The notes beneath the pieces are model-generated. The model was given only the letters and a program-made list of their open reading frames with translations, did not search any database and was not told the origin of the DNA. The position numbers and the translations under genes were made by a program. A stretch of 64,000 nt of DNA, from positions 186,001-250,000 of the forward strand of contig NZ_AUGV01000004.1 in NCBI RefSeq assembly GCF_000422845.1, written 5' to 3'. The stretch's first letter is position 1. Each line of letters opens with the position of its first letter. Of the stretch, positions 28,969 to 46,169 are shown piece after piece. Source of the DNA: Oceanobacter kriegii DSM 6294 (GTDB taxonomy: Bacteria > Pseudomonadota > Gammaproteobacteria > Pseudomonadales > Oceanobacteraceae).

Positions 28969-29054
28969 CCGCCCTGGAACCTTCATCGCCCCGAAAGATC
29001 CATTAGCGGCACCGCTGCAACATTGCGTCAGTTTTAACGCTGCACGCTTTTGGG

Positions 29055-29060
29055 TATTAT
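29055..29060 (+). promoter_or_regulatory. Candidate -10 box for the GT2-GT39-PAP2 genes
   Basis: TATTAT with a weak -35 (TTTAAC, 16 bases upstream). A start near 29067 would leave too short a leader for the ATG at 29077 and supports the GTG start at 29101. Confidence 0.35.
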
Positions 29061-29100
29061 CCAGCGCGTTTCCTATATGATTTTTCAGAGTGGTATCCCT

Positions 29101-30177
29101 GTGACAGAGAACACCAAGCCGTCCTTGTCGATTGTTATTCCGATGTTCAATGAAATCGACAACGTCGGCCCAATGATTTCCCGCGTGCATGAAGCCCTGG
29201 ACGACTACCAAGGTCCATGGGAACTGCTGGTCGTTGACGACGGCAGTACCGATGGCACGCCACAGGCGCTGCGTCGCCAATCTGAAGAACGCGGCAGTCA
29301 TGTTCGTGTGGTTGAGCTGCGTCGCAACTTCGGCCAAACCGCGGCCATGCAGGCGGGTATCGATGAAGCCCGTGGTGAACTGATCGCGACACTGGATGGC
29401 GACCTGCAAAACGATCCAAAAGACATTCCTCGCATGGTCGACCACCTGATCGAGAAAGACCTCGACCTGTTGACCGGCTGGCGTAAAAACCGCAAGGACG
29501 ACCTGGTAATGCGCAAGATTCCTTCGCGCATTGCCAACCGCCTGATTGGCAAGATCACCGGCGTACGCATCAACGACTACGGCTGCTCCCTGAAGGTATA
29601 CCGCTCCTCGGTTATCAAGCAGGTACGCCTGTACGGTGAAATGCACCGCTTTATTCCGGCCTGGGTGGCTGCGGTTGTACCACCAAGCCGCATTGGCGAG
29701 ATCGTGGTTGACCACCATGCGCGTACCGCAGGCACCTCCAAGTACGGCATTTCCCGCACCTTCCGGGTTATTCTGGATTTGCTGTCGGTCTACTTCTTCA
29801 TGCGTTACCGCGCCCGTCCTGGTCACTTTTTTGGCATGATCGGCCTGACCATGGGTTCTATTGGCTCCTTGCTGATGGTGTACCTGGCCTTTGTGAAGTT
29901 TATTCTGGGTGAAGATATTGGCGGCCGACCGCTGTTCCTGATCGCAGTGGTGTGTGTCATTGCGGCGCTGCAATTCCTGACCACCGGCGTGATGTCTGAA
30001 CTTATTTCACGTACCTATTTCGAATCGTCGGCCCGCCAACAGCAATACGTGATCTACCACCGCGAAGGTGAGCCAACAGCCGATGCCGATTGGGCGAACG
30101 GGAATGGTCCGAGTTCTACATTGAAAGACGAATTCAACGACGAAGCCAACAAAGACGCCCCAACCTCCGCGAGCTGA
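29101..30177 (+). CDS. Membrane-bound glycosyltransferase family 2 (ArnC/GtrB/DPM1 type)
   Basis: A 358-residue protein. Residues 5-230 form the GT-A domain: SIVIPMFNEIDNV, VVDDGSTDGT and ATLDGDLQNDPKDIP carry the nucleotide-sugar and metal-binding aspartates. Residues 240-320 hold two transmembrane helices. Such enzymes load a sugar from a nucleotide donor onto undecaprenyl phosphate at the inner leaflet. The next gene is an ArnT-like transferase that would use the product in the periplasm. The start is uncertain: GTG 29101 is preferred, ATG 29077 is possible. Arn pathway genes such as arnA, arnB and arnD are not nearby, so the sugar need not be L-Ara4N. Confidence 0.9.
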   Translation: MTENTKPSLSIVIPMFNEIDNVGPMISRVHEALDDYQGPWELLVVDDGSTDGTPQALRRQSEERGSHVRVVELRRNFGQTAAMQAGIDEARGELIATLDGDLQNDPKDIPRMVDHLIEKDLDLLTGWRKNRKDDLVMRKIPSRIANRLIGKITGVRINDYGCSLKVYRSSVIKQVRLYGEMHRFIPAWVAAVVPPSRIGEIVVDHHARTAGTSKYGISRTFRVILDLLSVYFFMRYRARPGHFFGMIGLTMGSIGSLLMVYLAFVKFILGEDIGGRPLFLIAVVCVIAALQFLTTGVMSELISRTYFESSARQQQYVIYHREGEPTADADWANGNGPSSTLKDEFNDEANKDAPTSAS

Positions 30178-30183
30178 TACCCA

Positions 30184-31803
30184 ATGCGATTGCCCCTTCC
30201 AGCAGCCATGCCTTTTTGGCTGCTGCCCCTCATCGTGGTGCTGTTTTCATTGAACATGGGCGGCTACCTGCTGTTTGACCATGATGAAGGCGCCTTCAGT
30301 GAAGCCACCCGCGGCATGTTCGAGCGTGGCGATTTTATTACCACCTGGCTAAACGACCGGGTGCGTTTTGACAAACCCATCCTGATTTACTGGCTACAGG
30401 GCGTTTCCATGTCCCTGTTTGGCACCGAAGTGTGGGCATTCCGCTTGCCGTCGGTGCTGGCTGGCATCATCTGGTCGATGGCCACGTTCGTATTCGCACG
30501 TCACTACCTCAGCCGCGATACCGGCGTCGCTGCGGCGATGATCTGCGCCAGCGCATTGGGCATTAATGTTATTTCCCACGTAGCGACCGCCGATGCACTG
30601 CTGAATTCGGTACTGGCCTGCACCCTGCTGTTGATGTATCACCACAGTCGGCTGAGCCTGCGCGACCCTCGTGCCGGTAAAGGTGTGCTGTATGCGGTGT
30701 ACGCTTTGATGGGCATTGGCGTACTGACCAAAGGTCCGGTGGCGGTTGCCATTCCGGGTGCCGTGGCGGTGATTTTCTATCTTTGGAACGGTCAGCGTGA
30801 GGCCCTGTTGCGTGCCTTGTTCTTCGTACCAGGCTGGGTACTGTTTTTGGCCATCGCCGCACCATGGTATGTGCTGGAGTACATGGCTCAGGGGCAGGAT
30901 TTTATTAACGGCTTTTTCCTCAAGCACAACGTCAATCGCTTTAACAACGCGATGGAAGGCCACGGCGGCTCGTTGTTCTTCTACCCGCTGGTCTTACCGT
31001 TTGTTCTTGCCCCCTTTGGTCCACTGTTGCTGCGCATGCTGCCAAGCATCAAGAGTGTTACCTCTGATCCGCTGAATCGTTTCCTGTGGATCTGGTTCCT
31101 GTTTGTGCTGGTGTTGTTCAGCGCCGCCAGCACCAAGCTGCCGCATTACATTCTGTACGGCTGCACCCCACTGGTGTTGCTGATGGCCCGTCATCGCTTT
31201 GCTCTCAAGCGCCGTTGGCTGGTCGCTATTCTGCCTGCCCTGTTCTTTGCACTGTTTGCGATCTTTCCGCTGCTGTTGCCGACCATCAAGGCTAGCCTCA
31301 CCAACCCGATCGAAATTGCCACGGCAGAACGTGCTTCTCACTACATTAATACTGCCTTTGCCATCAAGGCTGCGGTGCTGGGTCTGATCGCGGTTGGCTT
31401 TATTCTGTGGCGCAAACTGGCCATCTGGAAAGGGCTGTTTCTGGCGGGTATTTGTCAGGCCATTTTCACCTGGTATGTGTTTGCTCCGGCCTTCAGCGAA
31501 GCCCAGCAGCGCCCTATTTATAACGCCGCCATGTTTGCCCGCGAGCACAATCTGCCTGTAACCACCCTGTCGATTGATACTCCGAGCTTTAACGTTTACC
31601 TCGACAAGGTCACCCCTCGACGCTCAGACCTGCCCGCTGGCCGGGTTGGTTTTGGCCGCGAAGACCGTATCGACAATCTGTCCCAATACAATGTGCTGTT
31701 TCACGAAGGACCGATTATGTTGATTCAATGGCCCGATAGCCCGGCGATGAACCCAACCGATGCTGACCAAACACACCCAACAGGAGCCCCTGATGCGCAC
31801 TGA
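30184..31803 (+). CDS. ArnT-like glycosyltransferase (GT39/PMT family, membrane)
   Basis: A 539-residue polytopic protein with about 11-12 helices. The first periplasmic loop has the acidic FDHDEGAFSEATRGM motif, comparable to the catalytic DE region of ArnT/PMT proteins, followed by FDKPILIYWLQ. It would transfer a sugar from undecaprenyl phosphate to lipid A or another envelope acceptor. It begins six bases after the GT2 stop, so they form an operon. It overlaps the next gene by 11 bases. The acceptor and sugar cannot be told from sequence. Confidence 0.88.
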   Translation: MRLPLPAAMPFWLLPLIVVLFSLNMGGYLLFDHDEGAFSEATRGMFERGDFITTWLNDRVRFDKPILIYWLQGVSMSLFGTEVWAFRLPSVLAGIIWSMATFVFARHYLSRDTGVAAAMICASALGINVISHVATADALLNSVLACTLLLMYHHSRLSLRDPRAGKGVLYAVYALMGIGVLTKGPVAVAIPGAVAVIFYLWNGQREALLRALFFVPGWVLFLAIAAPWYVLEYMAQGQDFINGFFLKHNVNRFNNAMEGHGGSLFFYPLVLPFVLAPFGPLLLRMLPSIKSVTSDPLNRFLWIWFLFVLVLFSAASTKLPHYILYGCTPLVLLMARHRFALKRRWLVAILPALFFALFAIFPLLLPTIKASLTNPIEIATAERASHYINTAFAIKAAVLGLIAVGFILWRKLAIWKGLFLAGICQAIFTWYVFAPAFSEAQQRPIYNAAMFAREHNLPVTTLSIDTPSFNVYLDKVTPRRSDLPAGRVGFGREDRIDNLSQYNVLFHEGPIMLIQWPDSPAMNPTDADQTHPTGAPDAH

Positions 31804-32587
31804 TCGCCTGACACTTGGCCCACAACAGGTCCCTCTGCTGGTTGCCGCCTTGCTGTTATTGGCCATGGCACTGGTGGTGTCGCTAAGCGACACCAATGCC
31901 GCCATTTTTCTGCTGCTGAACCAGGATGCCAGTGTGTTGCCAGATGGCTTCTGGGCCAACATGACCTTCACCGCCGACACCCTGTTCGGCGTTTGTTTGC
32001 TGCTGCTGGTCGCAGGCTTCCGCCCCCAGATTCTGGCGCCTTCGCTGGTACTGCTGATTATTGGCACTCTTTATGTGCAGGGCGGCAAAGCCTTCTTTGA
32101 TGCCCTGCGACCGGCCGCTGTGCTGGTGCCTGACAGCTTTCACATCATTGGCCCCACACTCACCCGCCACAGCTTTCCGTCTGGCCACTCCTTCACGGCA
32201 CTGAGTTGCTGGACACTGGTCATGCTGGCCATTTCACCACGTTGGCTGCTGCCACTGCTGGCCTTTGCCCTGCTGGCAGCATTCAGCCGTATCGCGGTGG
32301 GTGCCCACTGGCCACTGGACGTTCTGGTCGGCTCGGCTGGCGGCATCATCATTGCCTGGCTGTCGGTGTGGATTTGCCAGCACTTCGAATGGCCCAACAA
32401 GCCGGGCGTGATCCTGTTTACCGCCACTATTCTGTCATTGGCGGCTATTTATACGCCGTTCCACAACGACCCATACCCGTGCACCGGTTTGCTGGCCTCC
32501 GTTATTGCCATTTGCGCACTGATCAACAGTGCACGTGGCTTCTGGATTCCGGTCTTCAAGCGCGTCAAAACCGCGCCTTCGATCTGA
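31793..32587 (+). CDS. PAP2-family membrane phosphatase
   Basis: A 264-residue protein with six predicted helices. The three phosphatase motifs are complete: K99-x6-R106-P107, P129-S-G-H132 and S165-R-x5-H172-x3-D176. The start at 31793 follows CAGGAG by seven bases. Members dephosphorylate undecaprenyl diphosphate, phosphatidylglycerol phosphate or lipid A. Operon position after GT2 and ArnT-like genes points to recycling of undecaprenyl (pyro)phosphate or lipid A dephosphorylation, which is inferred. Confidence 0.9.
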   Translation: MRTDRLTLGPQQVPLLVAALLLLAMALVVSLSDTNAAIFLLLNQDASVLPDGFWANMTFTADTLFGVCLLLLVAGFRPQILAPSLVLLIIGTLYVQGGKAFFDALRPAAVLVPDSFHIIGPTLTRHSFPSGHSFTALSCWTLVMLAISPRWLLPLLAFALLAAFSRIAVGAHWPLDVLVGSAGGIIIAWLSVWICQHFEWPNKPGVILFTATILSLAAIYTPFHNDPYPCTGLLASVIAICALINSARGFWIPVFKRVKTAPSI

Positions 32588-32703
32588 TCTCGAACAAAAA
32601 CCGACCAGTTTCATGCCAATTACAGCAGATAAACGCTGACTGGCGTGATCTGTGTCGGGCTTTTTGAGTCGCGATTGACGATTCTCAGTTAAGAATATTT
32701 TTC

Positions 32704-32731
32704 TTTATCCATTTTTGCCGCCTGCTATATA
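32704..32731 (+). promoter_or_regulatory. Candidate fabB promoter
   Basis: TTTATC at 32704-32709 and TATATA at 32726-32731 with a 16-base spacer give a start near 32738 and a leader of about 120 bases before the fabB ATG. Confidence 0.5.
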
Positions 32732-32798
32732 GTGGACGGCGATTTTCAGTATTTTGAGCTTTTTCAGGGCTCATTACTTATTTTTGAAACATTAATTC

Positions 32799-32825
32799 AA
32801 CGCGACGGTCGTACGATGTCGCGTT
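32799..32825 (+). promoter_or_regulatory. Inverted repeat in the fabB leader
   Basis: AACGCGAC (32799-32806) and GTCGCGTT (32818-32825) form a perfect eight-base inverted repeat around an 11-base spacer containing the palindrome TCGTACGA. It ends 33 bases before the fabB start. It could be a repressor operator for fatty-acid regulation or an RNA hairpin; which one is not decidable here. Confidence 0.6.
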
Positions 32826-32858
32826 TCAGTCACTTAGAACAAGTTCAGAGATCTAGTT

Positions 32859-34070
32859 ATGCGTCGAGTAGTGGTTACAGGTATAGGGATCGTTGGTTGC
32901 CTGGGCAACAATAAGGAAGAAGTACTGTCCTCGTTGCGCGAACAGCGCTCCGGTATCCAATTCATTCCTGAGTACGCTGAGATCGGTATGCGCAGCCACG
33001 TTGCTGGCCGTCCGAAAATCGACGTGAGTGAACACATCGATCGTAAAATGATGCGCTTCATGGGCGACTCTGCTGCTTACTCCTACTTGTCATTGAAAGA
33101 AGCCATTGCCGACGCTGGTCTGACTGACGAAATGGTCAGCAACCCACGTTCCGGCATCATCACCGGTTCCGGCGGCGCCTCAACCAGCGACATCGTTGAG
33201 TCTGTCGACATCCTGCGTGAAAAAGGCGTCAAGCGCGTTGGTCCATACCGTGTAACCCGCACCATGGGTTCCACAACCTCCGCCAACCTGGCAACTGCCT
33301 TCAAGATCAAGGGCACCAACTACTCCATGACCTCCGCTTGTGCGACCAGCGCACACTGTATTGGTCACGGTGCCGAGCTGATTCAATTTGGCAAGCAAGA
33401 CATCATTTTTGCCGGCGGCGGTGAAGAAGAGCATTGGGCACTGTCCATGCAGTTCGACGCCATGGGCGCACTGTCTACCAAGAACAACGACAACCCAGCC
33501 ACCGCTTCCCGTGCCTACGATGCTAACCGTGACGGTTTTGTAATCGCTGGCGGCGGCGCGATGGTTGTACTGGAAGAATACGAGCACGCAGTAGCCCGTG
33601 GCGCCACCATCTACGGTGAGCTGGTTGGCTACGGTGCCACTTCCGACGGCGCCGACATGGTAGCCCCTTCCGGTGAAGGTGCAGTTCGCTGCATGCAGAT
33701 TGCCATGGCAGAAGCCGGCAACCCGGAAATCAACTACCTGAACACTCATGGTACTTCCACTCCAGCAGGCGACATCACCGAACTGAAAGCCGTAGCCCAG
33801 GCCTTTGATGGCAAGGTGCCACCGTTCAGCTCTACCAAGTCCCTGTCCGGTCACTCTCTGGGTGCCGCGGGCGTGCAAGAAGCCATTTACTGCTTGCTGA
33901 TGATGAAACACGGTTTCATCACCGGTAGTGCCAACATCACTGAAGTGGATGAAGGCGCTGCTGAGTACGATCTGGTTCAAGAGAACCGTGAAGCTGAGCT
34001 GAAGTACGTTATGTCCAACAGCTTCGGCTTCGGTGGCACCAACGCCACACTGATTTTCAAGGCTGTCTAA
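32859..34070 (+). CDS. fabB: 3-oxoacyl-[ACP] synthase I (KAS I)
   Basis: A 403-residue condensing enzyme of type II fatty acid synthesis, which extends acyl-ACP with malonyl-ACP and is needed for unsaturated fatty acids. The catalytic triad is Cys162 (SACATSAHC), His297 ([11 protein letters not shown]) and His332 ([12 protein letters not shown], with K327). Overall sequence and the [11 protein letters not shown] end match FabB rather than FabF. Unlike the common fabA-fabB pair, no fabA is next to it; instead a giant carboxylase gene follows. Confidence 0.95.
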
Positions 34071-34078
34071 TCAGCAGC

Positions 34079-34111
34079 CAGGGGCAAGGGAAACCCGATC
34101 CTTGCTCCCTG
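34079..34111 (+). other. Hairpin between fabB and the carboxylase gene
   Basis: CAGGGGCAAGG pairs with CCTTGCTCCCTG (one bulge) around a ten-base loop, nine bases after the fabB stop. No T run follows. A second, smaller hairpin (TTGGTTTGGC / GCCAACCAA, about 34165-34190) comes next. They may set the ratio of the two proteins without full termination. Confidence 0.5.
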
Positions 34112-34227
34112 ACTTACCAGGCCTGCGACGGCAACTGAAAACATCGGTTGCCCAGCGGGCATGATTGGTTTGGCGGTATGCCAACCAACCTGGTCCGACG
34201 ATCGGCACATTACGGAATTAACCCAAC

Positions 34228-37200
34228 ATGTCTGAACAAATTTCCAAACAAGTAGACCAGCTCTTTCAAATTGCCGAACAGCTATCGGCAGACTTCTCCC
34301 TGTTCCCTGAGTATGAAGACAACGCTGTTGACCAAACCGTAAAAGGTCTGGTTGCGCCTGACACCTGTGACACCGAATTGGCGCGTCTGAAAACCCTGAA
34401 CATCGACGAATACATCGAACAGGTGGTTGCTCCTTCTGAAAGCAACAGCCGTGAAGGCGCCAAGAGCGTCGTCAAGCACCTGATCCTGCGTACCATCACT
34501 GAAGTTGAAGACGGCCCTCTGTACGCCTGTGAAGCCGACATGGACTTCAACGGCAAGGTACGTCGCGTTGCCTTCATCTGTCAGAACCGCGAAACCGCCA
34601 ACGGCGTTTGGGGCCCTCAGCACCACAACCGTGCGGCTCAGCTGGTTCGTGGCTACGCCCAACGCTCCATGCCAATCGTTACCTTCATCGACACGCCTGG
34701 AGCGGACGCCGGTGAAGTTGCCAACGCCGGCAACCAGGCGCACAGCATTTCCCACCTGATTACCGAGATGGCCAACAACGACGTGCCAACTCTGGGTATT
34801 ATCTGGGGTGCAGGTTACTCCGGCGGTGCCATTCCACTGGCCACCACCAACATCCTGCTGACCGTGCGCGACGGTATTTTCAACACCATTCAGCCACAGG
34901 GTCTGGCGAGCATTGCCCGCAAGTACAACCTGTCCTGGCAGGAATGTGCCAAGTACGTGGGTGTATCCGGTTACGAACTGCGTAAAGCCGGCATCATCGA
35001 TGGCATCATCGACTACGCCCCGACCGACGCTGACGAAAAGCGTTTCAACCTGCACCAGGCCGTGGTTTCCGGTATTCAGTCCATCGAAGGCAGCGCCGTC
35101 GAGTTCGCCAAGAACAACGAATACATGCTGGACCACTACAAGACCTCGGTTGAGCGTTTCCTGAAGCCGTCTGACAAACTGCAAAACCTGCAGAAAGGCG
35201 CTAACTTCTTCGTAGCAGAAAGCCCGACTGAACACGTTAACCTGTTTGGTCTGACGTACCGTTACACCCGTTACCTGACCCTGCGTCGTCGAATTCACTC
35301 CAGCACCGTTGAAAACTACGGCCGTCTGGCTGAGAAAGAGATTCCGGAAGGTCAGCTGCAACAGCGTCAACAAGCCGAATCCAAGCGCAAGTTCCAGAAC
35401 TGGCTGCAAGCGCCTGAGAAAATCGTTTACGACGACACGCTGCACAAGAGCTGGAAGAACTTCTGGAGCAAGTACGAAGACCGCGACGAAAGCCGTGGCA
35501 CCATCGCACGTCTGTTCCTGGGTGAACCAAAGAACAACTACCTGAAAGCCAAGCAAGAGCTGTGCTTTAACCTGGGTCTGTACCTGTTCAACCGCTGGAA
35601 GTCCGACGCACCGGTTAACTTCAACGGTCTGTTGAACTACCTGGAAGACTACAAGCAGAGCCGCTTCCTGCTACGCGCTGCTGACGTTCTGGATACCCAG
35701 TCCGTTGCCCAGTTCATCGAAAACAACGCCCACCCACTGGCGGCGTACATTCGTGAACAACTGCCTCACGATGTTCATCAGGAACTGACCCAGGGCATGG
35801 AAAAAGAGAAGTCCAAAGGCGCTCTGAAGCAGACCATCGCGTCCGCCCTGAACATCGTCCTGAAAGGCGCTCTGGTTCCTGAAGCCATTCGTTCCGAGCT
35901 GAAGCTGTCTTCCCGTACCGAAGCATTGGCCAACAGCACCGACGCGGCGACCATCGAAGCCAACCGTCGTATTCTGGAAGAGTCTCTGGCGCCGTACATC
36001 CAGTTCCGTCAGGAAAACATCCAGAACCCACAGCATCCGGACATCACCATTCTGGACGCCATTCTGCATGATGAACTGCGTCTGGAATTCACCCAGGTGT
36101 GTCACAACATGCTGGTGTTCGGCAAGATGTACGACAACTTCATCAGCAACCTGGTGAACGTTGCCAAGGAAGCCAACGAGAGCCGCGCGCTGTCGCTGGA
36201 AAGCCTGAAAGCACTGTTGGAAAAATCCCTCGCCGAAGCGACTTCTGGCGACACCTACACCGAGCAAGAGAAGGAATCCTTCAACTACTGGTTGAGCTAC
36301 TTCTGCAAGAGCGGTCAGCGTGGTGCCTTCCTGAAGTCCGTTGAAGAATGGAAGAAGCTGGCGTTCCCACGTCTGTCTGACACCCTGTTCGTGGTGATCA
36401 CCTTCATTCTGGAAAAACTGCTGCCGGAATACTATTCCGCCGAGCAACAGGGCAAGGCCTACAACGGTCGCATCAACCCGGTAACCATTGGTCGTCGTAA
36501 AGACTTCTGGAACCGTCTGACCATGGCCTACCACGACTTGCTGATCCAGCAGGTTCTGGACGACACCAAGCGTCAGAAGAAGACCTCCGCCAATGCCATC
36601 ATTGAGCGCTTCTTCAGCGATTTCCAGGAAACCAACGCCAACCTGATGTCGGCTGACCCGGTTCAATTCCCAGGCTTCCGTAGCTCCATCGAAGGCGCTC
36701 TGAAGAAAGACGTCAAGCCATGTGGTGTGATCACCGGTATCGGTACCATCAAGATTGGTGAGCGCGAACAGCAAGTCGGTGCGCTGGTATCCAACCTGGA
36801 CTTCCAGGCCGGTGCCTTCGATATGGCTTCTGCCGAGAAATTCTGCAAGCTGATGGTGGAGTGTGCCAAGCTGCACCTGCCAATCGTTTGTTTCGTTTCT
36901 TCCGGTGGTATGCAAACCAAAGAAGGTGCTGCGGCACTGTTCTCCATGGCGGTAACCAACGACCGTATCACCCGTTTTGTTCGTGACAACGAACTGCCAA
37001 TGGTGATCTTCGGCTTCGGTGACTGTACTGGTGGTGCGCAGGCGTCCTTCGTGACTCACCCGCTGGCGCAGACCTACTACTTCTCCGGTACCAACATGCC
37101 GTTCGCCGGTCAGATTGTTGTGCCTAGCTACCTGCCAAGCACCAGCACCCTGTCCAACTACCTGTCTGTTTCTCCGAAGTCCATGGACGGTCTGGTGGCC

Positions 37201-39108
37201 CACCCGTTCTTCGACGATATGGACGACCGTCTGCGCGCCATCGACCCTGACATGCCAACCGCACGTCACACCGTTGATGACGTTCTGGATCGTGTTCTGC
37301 AAGGTTACGTGACTGCCGAGCGTCTGATTCCGGACACTGGCAAAGGCGCCAACAGCGACAAGGTATTCGGTCCTGTCGACAAGGTGCTGGTACACGCCCG
37401 TGGTTGTACTGCCGTGAAACTGATCCGCAAGGCTCAGGAAAACGACATCAAGGTGGTTCTGGTTCAGTCCGACCCGGACATGAACTCCGTTCCAGTGGAC
37501 ATGCTTGGCCCTGAAGACCGTGTGATTTGTATCGGTGGTAACACTCCGGATGAATCCTACCTGAACGCCAAGTCCGTGCTGCGTGTTGCGCACCACGAAA
37601 ACGTCAAAGCCCTGCACCCGGGCATCGGCTTCCTGTCTGAAAGCAGCCAGTTCGCCGCTCTGTGTGGCAACCACGACATCAACTTCATTGGCCCTGCTGT
37701 TTCCTCCATGGAAACCATGGGTAACAAGTCCAACGCGATTAACACCGCGATGCGCGTTGAAGTTCCGGTTGTCCCAGGCTCTCACGGCATTCTGACCAGC
37801 TCTGCCAACGCAGCGGCGGTTGCAGAAGAAATCGGTTACCCGGTACTGCTGAAAGCCGTACACGGTGGTGGTGGTAAAGGCATCCAGGTGGTTCACTCTG
37901 CCGACAAGATGCACACCCTGTTCCACCAGATCTCTACGGAAGCCAAGGCGGCCTTCGGTAACGGCGACGTGTACCTGGAGAAGTTTGTCACTTCCCTGCG
38001 TCACATCGAAGTACAGGTACTGCGTGACAAGCACGGCAACACCAAGATTCTGGGTCTGCGTGACTGTTCCGTACAGCGTAACAACCAGAAGCTGTTCGAA
38101 GAATCCGGCTCCACCATGCTGCCGCGTGAACTGGAACAGCTGTCCTACGACTACGCCACCAAGCTGGCCGACGCCGTGGACTACTTCGGTGCCGGTACCG
38201 TTGAATTCATTTTCGACCTCGATGCCAACACCATCTACTTCATGGAAATGAACACCCGTCTGCAGGTAGAACACCCTGTAACGGAATGGGTATCCGGTAT
38301 TGATATCGTATCCACCCAGTTCAAGATCGCGGAAGGCGAATCCATTGCTGACCTGACGCCGAAGCAGAACGGTTACGCCATTGAAGTACGTATCAACGCC
38401 GAGAAGCCGGTAATCAAGGGTGACGAGCTGCAGTTCGTTCCTACTCCGGGCAAGATCCGCGAATGCGTACTGCCGGAAGAAGATTACATCGATCTGATTT
38501 CCATGGCCGCTGCCGGTAAGGAAGTATCACCGTTCTACGACAGCATGATCGTCCAGATCATCTGTTACGGTAAGGACCGTGAAGACACTGTAGCCAAGCT
38601 GCGTGAATACCTGAGCCGCGTGAAGATCACCGGCGTGTGCACCAACATCCCGACCGCCATGCGCATTCTGGATGATGAAGTGTTCAAGAACGGTGTTTAC
38701 GACACTGGCTACCTGCCGAAATTCCTGGATCGCACCGACCTCAATGCCCTGATCAAGGACGTTGAAGAAGCCGCCGATCTGGCCGCTGACGCAGTAGATG
38801 CTTCTGAACTGAAGATTGAAGGTTCTGACGAACTGAAAGTTCTGTCTCCAACCACGTCTATCTTCTACGGCTCATCTTCTCCAAGCGAACCTGCGTTCGT
38901 GAAAGAAGGCGACATCATCGACGTTGAGCAGACCCTGTGTCTGATGGAAGCGATGAAGATGTTCACGCCGCTGAGCCTGAAGCAGTTCAACCGTGCTGGT
39001 GCCGAACTGTACCCGGCAGGCCAGAAGTTCAAGGTCACTCGTATCATGAACGCCGATGGCCAACAGGTGAACCAGGGCGACCTGCTGTTCGTTGTGAAAC
39101 CGGTTTAA
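34228..39108 (+). CDS. Single-chain biotin-dependent acyl-CoA carboxylase, CT-alpha/CT-beta/BC/BCCP
   Basis: A 1626-residue protein with all four acetyl-CoA carboxylase activities in one chain. Residues 60-270 are AccA-like (MPIVTFIDTPGADAG at 148-162, WGAGYSGGA at 193-201). Residues 350-800 are a helical linker I do not recognise. Residues 805-1020 are AccD-like (SSGGM at 891-895, GDCTGGA at 931-937) without the four-cysteine zinc finger. Residues 1045-1490 are biotin carboxylase (GGGGKG at 1213-1218, MNTRLQVEHPVTE near 1341-1353). The C-terminus is a biotin carrier with MEAMKM, biotin on K1577. It would carboxylate acetyl-CoA to malonyl-CoA; another acyl-CoA is possible. It follows fabB. 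The ribosome site is weak. Domain order differs from eukaryotic ACC (BC-BCCP-CT). Confidence 0.88.
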   Translation: MSEQISKQVDQLFQIAEQLSADFSLFPEYEDNAVDQTVKGLVAPDTCDTELARLKTLNIDEYIEQVVAPSESNSREGAKSVVKHLILRTITEVEDGPLYACEADMDFNGKVRRVAFICQNRETANGVWGPQHHNRAAQLVRGYAQRSMPIVTFIDTPGADAGEVANAGNQAHSISHLITEMANNDVPTLGIIWGAGYSGGAIPLATTNILLTVRDGIFNTIQPQGLASIARKYNLSWQECAKYVGVSGYELRKAGIIDGIIDYAPTDADEKRFNLHQAVVSGIQSIEGSAVEFAKNNEYMLDHYKTSVERFLKPSDKLQNLQKGANFFVAESPTEHVNLFGLTYRYTRYLTLRRRIHSSTVENYGRLAEKEIPEGQLQQRQQAESKRKFQNWLQAPEKIVYDDTLHKSWKNFWSKYEDRDESRGTIARLFLGEPKNNYLKAKQELCFNLGLYLFNRWKSDAPVNFNGLLNYLEDYKQSRFLLRAADVLDTQSVAQFIENNAHPLAAYIREQLPHDVHQELTQGMEKEKSKGALKQTIASALNIVLKGALVPEAIRSELKLSSRTEALANSTDAATIEANRRILEESLAPYIQFRQENIQNPQHPDITILDAILHDELRLEFTQVCHNMLVFGKMYDNFISNLVNVAKEANESRALSLESLKALLEKSLAEATSGDTYTEQEKESFNYWLSYFCKSGQRGAFLKSVEEWKKLAFPRLSDTLFVVITFILEKLLPEYYSAEQQGKAYNGRINPVTIGRRKDFWNRLTMAYHDLLIQQVLDDTKRQKKTSANAIIERFFSDFQETNANLMSADPVQFPGFRSSIEGALKKDVKPCGVITGIGTIKIGEREQQVGALVSNLDFQAGAFDMASAEKFCKLMVECAKLHLPIVCFVSSGGMQTKEGAAALFSMAVTNDRITRFVRDNELPMVIFGFGDCTGGAQASFVTHPLAQTYYFSGTNMPFAGQIVVPSYLPSTSTLSNYLSVSPKSMDGLVAHPFFDDMDDRLRAIDPDMPTARHTVDDVLDRVLQGYVTAERLIPDTGKGANSDKVFGPVDKVLVHARGCTAVKLIRKAQENDIKVVLVQSDPDMNSVPVDMLGPEDRVICIGGNTPDESYLNAKSVLRVAHHENVKALHPGIGFLSESSQFAALCGNHDINFIGPAVSSMETMGNKSNAINTAMRVEVPVVPGSHGILTSSANAAAVAEEIGYPVLLKAVHGGGGKGIQVVHSADKMHTLFHQISTEAKAAFGNGDVYLEKFVTSLRHIEVQVLRDKHGNTKILGLRDCSVQRNNQKLFEESGSTMLPRELEQLSYDYATKLADAVDYFGAGTVEFIFDLDANTIYFMEMNTRLQVEHPVTEWVSGIDIVSTQFKIAEGESIADLTPKQNGYAIEVRINAEKPVIKGDELQFVPTPGKIRECVLPEEDYIDLISMAAAGKEVSPFYDSMIVQIICYGKDREDTVAKLREYLSRVKITGVCTNIPTAMRILDDEVFKNGVYDTGYLPKFLDRTDLNALIKDVEEAADLAADAVDASELKIEGSDELKVLSPTTSIFYGSSSPSEPAFVKEGDIIDVEQTLCLMEAMKMFTPLSLKQFNRAGAELYPAGQKFKVTRIMNADGQQVNQGDLLFVVKPV

Positions 39109-39255: not shown

Positions 39256-39290
39256 AAAAGCCCGATGCATCTTTCGATGCACCGGGCTTT
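39253..39290 (-). terminator. Terminator after the porin gene
   Basis: Long stem AAGCCCGATGCATC / GATGCACCGGGCTT with one G-T pair, followed on the minus strand by a T run. Confidence 0.85.
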
Positions 39291-39315
39291 GGCTATCCTG
39301 CGGATTGGCTATCGC

Positions 39316-40434
39316 TTAGAAGCTGTAGCCCAGACCCAGGTTGTAACCGGTCGCGTTCAGATCGCCATCCTTGTTCTGACGGAAGTAGTCCGCTTTCAGG
39401 GCAACGGTTTCGCTCAACCAGTAGTTAACACCGACGTCTTGCTGGGTGTAATCGGTACCCAGATCGGCGTCAGCCTGGTTGTCCCAACGGCTGTAACGGT
39501 AGAACGCACCCACATCGCCGACGCGGTAGGAAGGCTCGATGTACAGACCTTTCTGGGAAGTGGCGCCTTCGCCTTTGGCCAGACCCTGATCTTCAACAGC
39601 GTCAGACAGGGACCAGCTGGCGTACAGGGCACGCAGACCGAAGCCGTCTTTCTGGTAAGCGGCGTGCGCTTCAACCAGAGTACCGTTCACTTCTTCAGTA
39701 CCCGCGCCTTGCAGCATGTCGTCCTGGCGTTGCAGGGTTGCACCCAGCTCCAGACCGGCAATGGCGGTGTAACGAATACGTGCGGTGTAAGCAGCCTTGT
39801 TGGCAGGTGCTTCAGCGACCTTCTTACGGCCCTTACGGATGGTACCGTCGGAAGTGCTCAGGCCAGAGTGCATGGCCACATCTACTGCCAAGCCTGGAGC
39901 CAGACGAGAGGTCAACATAACACCACCTTCCCACCAGGTCGTTGGGATGATGTTTTTCTCTACGTTGTTACGCTCAACACCGTAGAAGGTATCTGGTTCG
40001 TGGGTTTCGTTCAGCAGGCCAACCGGCATCAGGAACATACCCATTTTGACAGAGTTGTTGGCGTTCAGATCGTGCTCGATGAAAGCCTGTTCCAGCTCAA
40101 CTTCACCTGGCTTACCGTCACCGGCCAGGCTGTGTTCCAGCTCCAGCTCAGCGAAGAAACGCGTGGTGTCGTTGAATTCCTTACCCAGGAACAATACGAA
40201 GCGGTGGTAGTCGATTTCGTTGTCGGTACCGTTATTCAGGTTTAGGTGGATTTCACCGTAACCACCCAGGCTCACACCGCTGTGAGCGCTTTCCTTGCTT
40301 TCCACCATGTCGGCAACGGCATTCAGTTGCTCACGCAGATCGGCGATTTCTGCTTTCAGTTCAGCATTGGTTTCAGCCATAACCGTGGAAGAAGCAGCCA
40401 TTGCAATGGCAGCTGCCAGCATCGAACGTTTCAT
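39316..40434 (-). CDS. Outer-membrane porin (possibly OprO/OprP-like)
   Basis: A 372-residue protein with a signal peptide at 1-20 (MKRSMLAAAIAMAASSTVMA), a short coiled coil at 22-50 (NAELKAEIADLREQLNAVADMVESK), then alternating beta strands that end GYNLGLGYSF with the terminal Phe recognised by the BAM machinery. The N-terminal coiled coil before the barrel is a feature of trimeric porins in marine gammaproteobacteria. The YGEIHLNLNN...FELELEHS-like strands recall phosphate-selective porins, but selectivity cannot be judged. It is monocistronic. Confidence 0.85.
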   Translation of the reverse strand: MKRSMLAAAIAMAASSTVMAETNAELKAEIADLREQLNAVADMVESKESAHSGVSLGGYGEIHLNLNNGTDNEIDYHRFVLFLGKEFNDTTRFFAELELEHSLAGDGKPGEVELEQAFIEHDLNANNSVKMGMFLMPVGLLNETHEPDTFYGVERNNVEKNIIPTTWWEGGVMLTSRLAPGLAVDVAMHSGLSTSDGTIRKGRKKVAEAPANKAAYTARIRYTAIAGLELGATLQRQDDMLQGAGTEEVNGTLVEAHAAYQKDGFGLRALYASWSLSDAVEDQGLAKGEGATSQKGLYIEPSYRVGDVGAFYRYSRWDNQADADLGTDYTQQDVGVNYWLSETVALKADYFRQNKDGDLNATGYNLGLGYSF

Positions 40435-40584
40435 GATTTTCCTAACTCTTGTTGTTGTGTGTCAAAAACGTCAGGAAAGGTAATGCAAATGAGAAGGCAC
40501 CTCAATGGCATTCTGGTACTAATTTGTAATAATTTCGTACCTGATAGCACTTATTTAACACACCGAAAACCAGTGTCCACAAAT

Positions 40585-40615
40585 AAAAACGCCCGACCAG
40601 TTGGTCAGGCGTTTT
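40585..40615 (-). terminator. Terminator after the DUF748 gene
   Basis: AAAACGCC...GGCGTTTT stem of about 14 base pairs with one mismatch and a following T run on the minus strand, 22 bases after the stop codon. Confidence 0.85.
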
Positions 40616-40636
40616 CAGCGGGCAGTGGTACTGGCG

Positions 40637-43600
40637 TTAGAAACCCATCTCTACCCGGGAGTCCTTGCCTTGCTCGGGCGAACAGACAGTAATTCGACGG
40701 GACAAGGACTTGTCCTTGTCGTCCTTGAACTGCGACAACCAGTCCTTAACGTTTTCACCGCGTTGAATGCCAAGACCGAACCATTGATCTCCCATGGCGG
40801 CCGCTTCTTCCTTACTGACGAACGGACACACTTGCAGCTCCAGCGCCGTCTTTTTCTTCATGGTGGAGACAACTTTTTGCAGGTAATCCGTTTGTTCAGA
40901 GGTCAGATCTGACTGTTGTGGCTGATATTTCAGCGGCTCCAGTCGAATGGCAAACAGGGTATCGGACGCCATAGAGCCCAGGCTGATCAGCGCACCGTAA
41001 GGCTGAAACGCTTGCTGCAAGTAATACAGGGTGGCGGTACGCACCGCGGTTTTGGTCACCTGTTGCAGAATGTCGTTGATGCCGATACCCGGGTCGTTGA
41101 TCGGACCGTCGATCGGGATATCAATTTTGAGGTTGTTGTTATCGTCTTTCAGTACCGACAACACGGTTTCAACCGGCATCGAAATTTGCTTGCTGACGCG
41201 GTCAATCCGCTTCTGGTTGGCTGGTTCAAACTTGCTGTTTTGCAGTCGCAGCGTCGCCTTGCCGTCCATCTGTCCCGCCACCACATCAACATTCGACTTC
41301 AACTGCAGCATGCCCTTTTGCACCTTGTAGCCAATCGCCTGAGACACATAAGGACTGAACGGTGGCAAGTTCATCTGACTGATGGAGAAGTTGAAATTGC
41401 CTTCAGGCAAACCGCCACTCAACCCCACTTTGGCATCCAGTTTGATGTCGTTGTATTTGTCGAGGCCCGCCAACACACTCACCGGTACACGGCTCTCCGG
41501 ATTGCCCAACAGCTCATTGCTGTCGACCTGGCCCACGGTGAAGGTACGCAGTTGCAGAGAGCTGCGATGATTTGGCTGAATCGCCTGATCTTCAAACTCA
41601 ATACGGCTATCGATGGCCGTGCCTGCGTTTTCAGTCAGCAGCTCAACCCCATCCACCCGAATCAGGATTGGCAAGGTTGGATTTACCGTCGGCGCGACGG
41701 GCCCTTCTGAGCTGCCCGTGCCGCCATTATTGGCTTTGGCACCGGCATCCGAGGCCACCGGCGTACCGGCAATGCGGCCGTCCTGCAAGCGCACCAGATT
41801 CATCTTCAAACCGGCAAACGTCTGTATCCCGGTGGTGAAGGCATCGCCATCGAAATAGGGCTTCGGAATCACATAGCTGGCCAGGCTCAGCAAAGGCCCC
41901 TTGTTTTTGACTGCTTCTGTTTCGCCGTCCGGGAATTGCGCCACCAGATTGCTCAGGGTTATCCGTTCAGCAGACTGGATATGACGGTCAGCGCTGATGC
42001 CCTCCACCGCCAGACTATCGAACGACAGCGGTGGCTGACCTTCTGCACGGCCCGAGAAGTGTTCAAAGACAACGTCGCCCACCAGCTGCGGCTGGCGACG
42101 CCAATCACGCAGCTGACCGTACCAGCGGAAGTTCAACGGTTGCAGCAGGGCCACGGATTGAGGCTCTTCGACTTCCAGACGCTGAACATCCAGACTACCG
42201 TTCAATTCAATCGGCAGATTCTGGGCGCTGTCGATCACCCCCAGATTCATGGCATCCGAAGTGATGTGCGCCACAATGCCAGACTGACGATAGCCGATGT
42301 CCAGCTGTTGAACATCCACTCCTTCGAGATGAAATTCCGGCAAGCCACCCGGACCAGTACCACGACGAGACTGGCTTGCTTGCGGGCTTACTTGTGTAGC
42401 TGTTTGTGTTGCTACGGAACTACGCTCAGCGGACTCACTGACACCCGTTTCACTGGAGTCAGTACCTCCGTTAACAGAATCCTGGGCATCCGCTGTATTG
42501 ACCGATGCAATCACAAACGGCAGTTGATTCAGACGCTCGTCTTCCAATCGGGCATCAATCTTCAGACCCTTGATGGTTTGCTTGCCCAGTTGCAGCATCT
42601 GACCGTCGAACAGCGCCCGATCAAGCTGGTATTGCTCCAGCACAAACAGGTCTCGCGCCACCTGACGAGCGTTAGGAGAGGTAATATGCAGACCGGTCAA
42701 ATTCACCTCGGCGGATGCCTGTTGTGACGCACTGGCCTCGATACCCTCCACCGAAAACTGATCGAATCCCAGCTCGATAGCATCCAGAGCCCGCAATTCC
42801 AGCCTTCCCAGTGTCAGGTCGCCTGCCACTCCCGGCGTGCTGTTCCACTGGGTAACGCGGCCAGACCAATCAACCTGAAACGGCTGTTCTAACGTCAGCT
42901 TCAACTCGGTATCGGCCGCCAGCGACTGCTGCAAGGTATCAACCAAGGCTTGTTGGTTGAGGCTGGTCAGAAGTTGGTCATCAAGCGCCAGGGATTCCAG
43001 CGCCACCGAGGTAGTCACATCAAATGACGCGGGGTTCTCGCTGTCGAAATTCGCCAGCGACAACTGTTTCAGGGTGGCCTTGCTACTCAGGCCTGGCTGC
43101 TGCCAGTTCAGGTTCCAGTCCGACAACGTCAGGTCATTGACCATTACCCGCCATGGCTCGCTTGGGCTGGTGGCGCCTGCAGTTGTTGTAGACGTCGCCT
43201 GCTGTTCCAGCGGCAATTCCAGACCCGCAAGGTGCAAAGTGCTATCGGCCATACTGGCTTGCAGTGTTAAGCCAGACACCGATACGCCTTCAATCTCGAT
43301 GGTGCGGTCCTTGAGCAGGCCGGTATTCACATCCAACGTCAGAGACTGCAATGAGGTTTGGTCGCCATCCTTACCCGGGTGATCCAGCACAATGCCATTC
43401 AGCGCCAGCGTGCCGGACCACAGTGACAGCTGCCAGTCCGCCAGTTGCAACTGGTACTCGTCACCCTGCTCGGCGTACCAGTTCTTCAACCAGGAAATCG
43501 CCAACGGCGGTGCCACGTAACGCACCAGCGGAACCAGAATGATCAATAACAGCAGCAACACCAGCACGGTGCGGCCCAGCCAGAACAGGATGCCGCGTGG

Positions 43601-43814: not shown

Positions 43815-46169
43815 TCACCGATCTGACGCCCACAAAGCGTCACGCAAGCCACTGGCTCGCACTACCCGGCTCTTTAAACCGATATGCCAAACTTCGGGCT
43901 GGGTCAGTAACACAAAGCGTTCCTTGGCTCGGGTGATCGCGGTGTAAATCAGCTCTCGGGTGATCACTGGCTGCCATTGCTCTGGCAACAGCAACATTAC
44001 CTGTTGAAACTCCGATCCCTGACTTTTATGGACTGTCATAACGAAAGAAGTTTCATGGCTGGGCAGTCGGCTGGGCAATAAAAAGCGAATTCCGCCTTCC
44101 CGTGCCTCAAAGGCCACCCGCAATTCTCCGCTGGTATCACGCACCACCACACCGATATCGCCGTTGTAGAGGCCGAGGTCGTAATCGTTACGGGTAATCA
44201 TAATCGGGCGCCCTGCGTACCAGACGCTGTCTGACGCCCGATTTAGAAGCCCTTGTCGCGTCAGCAGTTGCTCAACATGGCGATTCAGATTCTCCACGCC
44301 AAATGGCCCTTGTCGCACCGCCACCAGCGCCTGAAACTCGGCAAACGCCGCCAGCGCCTCGGCCCCTGCCTGTTCCTGCTCCTGCATCGAACGCGGCGCT
44401 GCAACGGCAATGCGGCTGCAATAGTAGCGATGACCGTCCAGCAAGTCCGTTTCCCAGTCACACAGTTGCGACGCATCGCGAGGCATGGCGCCTTGATCAT
44501 CATGCAAACGCAGCGACAACGCCTGAGGGTGACGACCGAACAGCTGCAAGGCAATACTGGAGCGCCCCTGATTCACCGCACTGGCCAGCTGGCCAATACC
44601 ACTGTCGGCGGTAAAACGGCGTGACACTTTCAGTTCGGCAACGGCATTGGCCATATTAAATGCTGGCTGGTCGACGACATCTGTACTGGTTGCAGCACCG
44701 CTCATCACCGACGCAATGGGATCTGAATTTGAGGGAGGAAACTCCGTTGGCGCGGAATCCGGGACAAGGTCAGCGCTTGCAAACAGGTCTGCTGTTTCGA
44801 ACGGCTGTAAGTGATCAGCGGAATCATCAGATACCCAACCGTTGTCTTCTCTGCTCTCTGTACTGTTCTCGAAAGTCGCCCCAGCACTGGTATTGGCAGG
44901 CAACTGCTGGCCGCACAATGCGCTAATCCGGGCGGCAAACTGCGCATCGGGCCAGCACTGGTTACCGGCATTACACAGATCTGCCAACACACTGCCGGCT
45001 TCCACCGAGGCTAATTGGTCCCGGTCGCCCAGCAAAATCAACCGCGCTGAAGCCGGAGTTGCCGCCACCAACTGATACATCATGGCAAGGTCAATCATCG
45101 AGGATTCATCAACCACAATGCAGTCATACGGTAAGGTTTGCTGTTCGCCGTAGCGGAAACCATCAGGTCGCCAGCCCAACAAACGATGAAGGGTAAAACT
45201 GGTATCCGGGATGGCGTCAGCATGAGCAACATCCCCACGCTCACGGGCAGCACGAATCGACTCGGTCATGCGGGCAGCGGCTTTTCCTGTCGGAGCCGCC
45301 AGGGCAATTCGAAGATCCGGTTCGGCGCTCAGCAAAGCCGCCAGCAAGCGCGTAACCGTGTGGGTTTTGCCTGTTCCCGGGCCACCTGTAATCACACAAA
45401 AACGCTGCAAACAGGCCGTTGCAGCGGCCACTGCTTGCCAGTCGGTCCGCTCCATTAGCCCCGCACTGGCGGGCACAGCCTGCGGCGGAAACAGGTCTGC
45501 AAATACCGGCGCCATGGCTGTCATATTCAGCTCGACCGGCAAAGCCAGTCGCTGGCGAATCTGCTGTTCGAGACCGTGCTGATAAAAGAAATAACGCGCC
45601 AGATACAAGCGTGGCTGCGGCCAGGTTTCCAGCACCAGCGGTTGGCCCTGATAAGCCGCCGTAACAGCATCCGGGCCAGCGGCGGTGCTGTTAAACACCG
45701 CCGGATGTTGCTCCAGCCAGCCTTGCCATTGCTGTGGTGTCGGCCAAAGCATATTCAGCGCGGCTATGGCGGACGGAACCTGACCAGAATTCGCGCTGGA
45801 AGTAGAGCTGGCCGCATCGACGTACAAGCCCTGCGGCAAAATGTCTTTCAGGGGGGACGTTGCCAGCGGCAGGCACACTTGTCCTCGCCCCAAGGCCCAG
45901 GATACCAAAAGCCCGGCCACTACCATTGCGGCATCCTGATCCTGGCAATTGTTATGAGCATTCCGGCTTTGCTGAGCTTCCTGACTTCTATTGTCAGGGC
46001 CGGACGACTGCGACTGATACAGAAACAGCTGTCTGGCCACTTGCCAGTCGATTTCCCGCAGCCGGTCGCTTTCCTGCAATGCCTGCCAGAGTGCCGCCAT
46101 GGCACTCTGTTTCATGCTGATTTGCAGCCCATCGGTTTGCGGATGACGAGTTGATCCTTGAGACATCAT
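43815..46169 (-). CDS. recD: Exodeoxyribonuclease V subunit alpha (RecD)
   Basis: 5'-3' helicase of the RecBCD double-strand-break repair complex. The 784 residues contain Walker A GGPGTGKTHT (K268) and VDESSMIDLAM, and end with the helicase motif MTVHKSQGSEF and YTAITRAK. E. coli RecD is 608 residues; much of the excess is a low-complexity acidic, Ser-rich insertion near residues 415-505 that splits the helicase core. The ATG overlaps the recB stop by one base (TAATG), so translation is coupled. It is last in recC-recB-recD. Confidence 0.95.
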   Translation of the reverse strand: MMSQGSTRHPQTDGLQISMKQSAMAALWQALQESDRLREIDWQVARQLFLYQSQSSGPDNRSQEAQQSRNAHNNCQDQDAAMVVAGLLVSWALGRGQVCLPLATSPLKDILPQGLYVDAASSTSSANSGQVPSAIAALNMLWPTPQQWQGWLEQHPAVFNSTAAGPDAVTAAYQGQPLVLETWPQPRLYLARYFFYQHGLEQQIRQRLALPVELNMTAMAPVFADLFPPQAVPASAGLMERTDWQAVAAATACLQRFCVITGGPGTGKTHTVTRLLAALLSAEPDLRIALAAPTGKAAARMTESIRAARERGDVAHADAIPDTSFTLHRLLGWRPDGFRYGEQQTLPYDCIVVDESSMIDLAMMYQLVAATPASARLILLGDRDQLASVEAGSVLADLCNAGNQCWPDAQFAARISALCGQQLPANTSAGATFENSTESREDNGWVSDDSADHLQPFETADLFASADLVPDSAPTEFPPSNSDPIASVMSGAATSTDVVDQPAFNMANAVAELKVSRRFTADSGIGQLASAVNQGRSSIALQLFGRHPQALSLRLHDDQGAMPRDASQLCDWETDLLDGHRYYCSRIAVAAPRSMQEQEQAGAEALAAFAEFQALVAVRQGPFGVENLNRHVEQLLTRQGLLNRASDSVWYAGRPIMITRNDYDLGLYNGDIGVVVRDTSGELRVAFEAREGGIRFLLPSRLPSHETSFVMTVHKSQGSEFQQVMLLLPEQWQPVITRELIYTAITRAKERFVLLTQPEVWHIGLKSRVVRASGLRDALWASDR

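Follow-up and report, generated by a model that had tools for sequence, protein, structure and literature searches.

In Shewanella oneidensis, the AccABCD homologues are reported to be replaced by AccS (SO_0840), a protein of 1517 residues, one extra AccB homologue, SO_0511, being also tabulated (PMC4793157). AccS had been described by 2016 at the latest and was the subject of a genetic study in 2024 (PMC4793157, PMC11602165). The latter describes the regulator AccR, a biotinylated AccS band near 170 kDa and a domain order unlike that of eukaryotic acetyl-CoA carboxylase (ACC); it also reports that an accR mutant, defective in growth, is rescued by accS as well as by joint expression of accA, accD and accBC from E. 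coli (PMC11602165). Here, we analysed a 64,000-nucleotide stretch of Oceanobacter kriegii DSM 6294 (contig NZ_AUGV01000004.1), hereafter the window, and within it a gene at positions 34228-39108 of the forward strand. In all probability, this gene is a relative, and most likely an orthologue, of accS, encoding a homodimeric single-chain ACC that makes malonyl-CoA and replaces AccABCD. The protein is an unexceptional representative of an enzyme type that is known but uncommon, and it widens the known range of that type.

Domain order and the solved counterpart

The open reading frame (ORF) begins with ATG and encodes 1626 residues without an internal stop. It is kept in relatives down to 41% identity and is therefore far beyond chance. 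The carboxyltransferase (CT) halves come first in the chain. The AccA-like CT-alpha occupies residues 1-290 (34228-35097), with a core match to Pfam ACCA at 124-280; Pfam Carboxyl_trans matches the chain in two stretches, the best at 113-207. A central linker (residues ~291-790, 35098-36597) leads to the AccD-like CT-beta (residues ~791-1045, 36598-37362), which matches the NCBIfam accD model TIGR00515 at 798-942, far under the model cut-off (45.1 vs 317.45 bits). These are followed by an AccC-like biotin carboxylase domain (BC; residues 1050-1497, 37375-38718), made up of Pfam Biotin_carb_N (1050-1161), CPSase_L_D2 (1167-1373) and Biotin_carb_C (1386-1497), and by an AccB-like biotin carboxyl carrier protein domain (BCCP; residues ~1538-1626, 38839-39105) with matches to Pfam Biotin_lipoyl (1540-1583) and NCBIfam TIGR00531 (1525-1624), all on the forward strand. 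E. coli AccA, AccD, AccC and AccB align to residues 126-261, 859-941, 1050-1500 and 1538-1599, respectively, the BC domain being 39% identical to AccC over 454 alignment columns. Thus, Pfam, NCBIfam and the E. coli alignments all bear out the order CT-alpha, CT-beta, BC, BCCP that an initial annotation had read from the letters, and the biotin lysine, K1577 in an AMKM motif near the C-terminus, lies exactly where it had been placed.

AccD normally carries a zinc finger of the Cys-x-x-Cys type. When the cysteine positions of the window protein were checked, no such pair was found between residues 280 and 1050; the CT-beta half therefore lacks the zinc finger, as had also been proposed.

A phmmer search against the PDB identified 9kkm/9w4a, "Acetyl-CoA carboxylase multifunctional enzyme AccADCB", of 1517 residues. 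In the Foldseek table, 9kkm is a holoenzyme dimer from S. oneidensis carrying the mutation E1238A and released on 2025-11-19; no structure paper was found in the literature searched by PDB code and topic. Residues 9-478 and 601-1626 of the window protein align to residues 16-485 and 492-1515 of 9kkm. From the offset of this alignment, the mutated E1238 should correspond to window E1348 and to E296 of E. coli BC. The initial annotation knew of no characterised enzyme with this arrangement; the 9kkm match and the S. oneidensis AccS literature (PMC4793157, PMC11602165) overturned that view, and we dropped the idea of an undescribed architecture. A literal match to "accADCB" in PMC9803151 was set aside, the passage concerned being a Berkiella gene list that does not show a fused gene.

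In an alignment of 24 AccS-type sequences, K1577 is invariant and the stretches GYSGGA, SSGGMQTKEG and GDCTGGAQASF are mostly so. The BC domain of the window protein keeps the equivalents of E. coli K116, K159, H209, E211, K238, E276, E288, N290, R292, Q294, V295, E296 and R338.

Other carboxylase genes in O. kriegii and its relatives

The initial annotation had suggested that the fused gene might be a second source of malonyl-CoA if the genome also held accABCD. In the O. kriegii genome, accA, accD and accB gave no match over family cut-offs, no separate accC-model genome search having been made. The fused enzyme is therefore most likely the only ACC of this organism, its gene standing in for accA and accD. 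The CT-like pair found on contig C9 (locus L087) is a biotin-independent malonate decarboxylase beta and gamma pair, over the cut-offs of both models, with mdcA nearby. For these reasons, we abandoned the idea of a redundant ACC. A biotin ligase gene is present in the genome. On contig C1, a frame of 1209 residues with a biotin/lipoyl domain was also noted.

We also surveyed a sample of 55 related genomes, O. kriegii included. The fused protein is present in 35 of them (in G049 it is cut by contig ends) and the canonical genes in 22, where accD is over cut-off in all 22 and accA in 21, the remaining accA copy, in G045, being truncated by the end of its contig. Altogether, 31 genomes have the fused gene only, 18 the canonical genes only, four both and two neither (Fisher p 8e-9, a descriptive value uncorrected for kinship); the latter two, G028 and G032, are assemblies that are 81% and 71% complete. 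Within the family of O. kriegii, 29 of the 34 examined genomes have an AccS-order single chain as their sole ACC candidate, three have both systems and two have neither. Among ten further genomes with the fused gene drawn from class and phylum samples and the genome of locus L046, a search for accA alone found it only in G220.

Oceanobacter mangrovi (93% identity), Thalassolituus, Bacterioplanes and Oleispira are among the named relatives; the names Oceanobacter, Thalassolituus and Oleispira do not occur in the main text of PMC11602165. With the linker of the window protein as query, a class sample of 369 genomes and a phylum sample of 398 each gave 6 genomes with a match, O. kriegii being counted in both samples and all matches falling within the class. 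These counts are lower bounds, as a linker as divergent as that of G039 (24% identity) may escape. Locus L051 was rejected as a remote single-chain relative: it has separate ORFs of 546 and 826 residues in a row and is probably an ordinary two-subunit carboxylase. Locus L050 was also rejected, only its BC domain matching, and in L038 the frame is interrupted by a stretch of N in the assembly.

Several observations weigh against a sole, active ACC of the AccS type. First, the O. kriegii assembly is a draft (36 contigs, 99.8% complete), which leaves a little room for a lost accA or accD. Second, both systems are found together in four of the 55 relatives (G023, G027, G031, G039) and in G220, so the fused enzyme is not the sole one in some lineages. 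Third, a free biotin carboxylase on contig C20 passes NF005525 and NF006367 ("acetyl-CoA carboxylase biotin carboxylase subunit") and is narrowly under the TIGR00514 accC cut-off (623.8 vs 626.5 bits). Fourth, H236 of E. coli BC is an asparagine in the window protein (N1286; 38083-38085), and asparagine also occupies this position in 90% or more of the 24 AccS-type proteins in the alignment. Finally, the ACC activity of the window protein is a prediction from its sequence.

The coexistence in relatives and the C20 gene would both fit a second, separately regulated ACC working beside a normal AccABCD. We consider this highly improbable, given that accA, accD and accB are all under family cut-offs in O. 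kriegii and that the C9 pair belongs to malonate decarboxylase. Moreover, the C20 biotin carboxylase overlaps the start of an oadA/pycB-like gene and is for that reason read as a pyruvate carboxylase subunit, the two genes together suggesting a two-subunit pyruvate carboxylase. The genomes carrying both systems are possible replacement intermediates. Genomes with the fused gene alone, the canonical genes alone or both offer natural cases for studying the replacement of an essential multi-subunit enzyme. As for the asparagine at the H236 position, it could be taken as the mark of an inactive or decaying fusion, to which we attach practically no credence: the frame is open, the catalytic residues are conserved across distant genera, and the genome has no accA, accD or accB over cut-offs to take over.

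It is also conceivable that the chain is a carboxylase with another main acyl-CoA substrate, propionyl-CoA or longer. This is very unlikely, since the similarity of the CT halves and of BCCP is to AccA, AccD and AccB, the fused gene occurs without accA and accD in the 31 relatives mentioned above, and it adjoins fabB. Furthermore, E. coli acc genes are reported to cure the growth defect of an AccS-underproducing S. oneidensis mutant (PMC11602165).

Domain order, catalytic-residue conservation, homology to 9kkm, the absence of accA, accD and accB over cut-offs and linkage to fabB are direct results of this study. By homology with AccS, we can propose the substrate, the dimerisation, a swinging-domain cycle and a scaffold role of the linker for this single-chain ACC. 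The BC domain would carboxylate the biotin on K1577 with ATP and bicarbonate, and the BCCP domain would ferry carboxybiotin to an active site made of CT-alpha and CT-beta. There, acetyl-CoA would be converted to malonyl-CoA, which would feed type II fatty acid synthesis. The helical linker may act as a scaffold that unites both CT halves with the BC/BCCP part as a single particle.

The linker and its extra segment

Residues 300-800 have no Pfam match. The initial annotation had described a linker of about 450 residues without recognisable fold; the linker is nearer 500 residues long, and its fold could be matched. A profile built from 24 homologues gave 9kkm as its sole confident match (E 3.1e-191; one other match had E 0.014). 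AlphaFold2 modelled residues 285-835 as helical (mean predicted local distance difference test score, pLDDT, 75.9; predicted template modelling score 0.63), and the model matches 9kkm with Z 30.8 and a root-mean-square deviation (rmsd) of 3.8 over 285 residues, the next row having Z 4.8. As a single rigid body, the whole model superposes poorly on 9kkm (Foldseek TM 0.48, rmsd 16.7), so the relative placement of its parts is unreliable. A second structure prediction, of residues 1-1045, has a mean pLDDT of 73.5. According to the profile and the model of residues 285-835, a homologous helical linker joins the CT halves, as in 9kkm. The central domain of eukaryotic ACC gave no sequence match to the linker profile, and no eukaryotic ACC was among the 50 structural matches listed.

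In the sequence alignment, residues 479-600 of the window protein, a helical segment in the model (~479-600, 35662-36027, forward strand), have no counterpart in 9kkm, which amounts to ~116 extra residues. In the 24-sequence alignment, the window protein, the relatives closer to it and G054 have 120-124 residues in this region and G060 has 99; the Shewanella-like group (g328), G564, G220, g174, G798 and G039 have 6-11. A FastTree tree (midpoint rooting; two internal supports under 0.4) does not set the long forms cleanly apart from the short ones, so gain and loss of the segment are indistinguishable. One may speculate, with considerable doubt, that the long form gained, or kept from an ancestor, a helical module with a regulatory or docking function absent in the Shewanella enzyme, for example contact with partners in fatty acid synthesis such as FabB. 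In its extra segment, the window protein departs from the solved enzyme in a concrete way that can be tested. The segment is newly described here, as is the presence of fabB upstream instead of a divergent accR.

Gene surroundings and comparison with known systems

Directly upstream of the fused gene and in the same direction lies fabB (32859-34070, forward strand), encoding beta-ketoacyl-acyl carrier protein synthase I and over the cut-off of NCBIfam NF005935; 157 bases separate its end from the carboxylase start codon. We surveyed 41 loci of at least 9 kb holding the fused gene. In 23 of them, a fabB homologue immediately precedes the fused gene with the same orientation, and in L085 it lies one gene farther upstream; it was not seen in the other 17, among which L081 has only ~900 bases upstream. 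A scan of 32500-34600 returned no promoter-like sites (1.2 expected) and five terminator-like sites (2.2 expected, standard deviation 1.5), one of which falls between fabB and the carboxylase gene, both results being weak evidence either way.

In the Shewanella-type loci L105-L108, a gene of 303 residues is divergently oriented 120-143 bp upstream, which is the layout reported for accR/accS. Pfam confirmed LysR domains in the divergent gene of L105 and L106, the copy in the genome of L108 is 82% identical to that of L106, and the fused protein of L106 matches 9kkm along its entire length. At the window locus, no divergent accR is present, fabB being upstream instead. When 11 genomes were searched, the nearest O. 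kriegii relative of the Shewanella-type LysR protein was 40% identical and on another contig. In L083 (genome G016), the fused gene is followed immediately by a LysR-type gene (2022-2918) that resembles the second LysR gene mentioned in PMC11602165.

Farther out, the genes just upstream of fabB (29050-32587) encode an ArnC-like glycosyltransferase, an ArnT-like PMT_2 protein and a PAP2 protein, and are retained in many relatives. Downstream of the carboxylase, neither of the forward ORFs at 39265-40245 and 40246-40692 matched a Pfam or NCBIfam family. A minus-strand ORF at 39316-40434, with a weak porin match and no match in NCBIfam, runs opposite the former and, in part, the latter. At 43815-46169, recD is over the TIGR01447 cut-off; next to it are two large minus-strand ORFs, possibly recB and recC.

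The window protein can be compared with three types of ACC. E. coli AccA, AccB, AccC and AccD each align to the corresponding domain, but they are encoded by separate genes, and E. coli AccD has a zinc finger that the window protein lacks. In eukaryotic-type homomeric ACC, BC and BCCP precede CT, whereas the CT halves come first in the window protein. The homomeric enzymes of Eukaryotes and Actinobacteria, such as SACE_4237, nonetheless resemble it as single chains in which BC, BCCP and CT are accompanied by a central region without catalytic function (PMC6491548); the linker profile gave no sequence match to them. S. oneidensis AccS, as seen in 9kkm, shares with it the order CT-alpha, linker, CT-beta, BC, BCCP, homology over both halves of the chain and a matching linker fold. 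It differs in being 1517 rather than 1626 residues long, mainly owing to the extra linker residues of the window protein, and in having a divergent accR upstream where the window has fabB.
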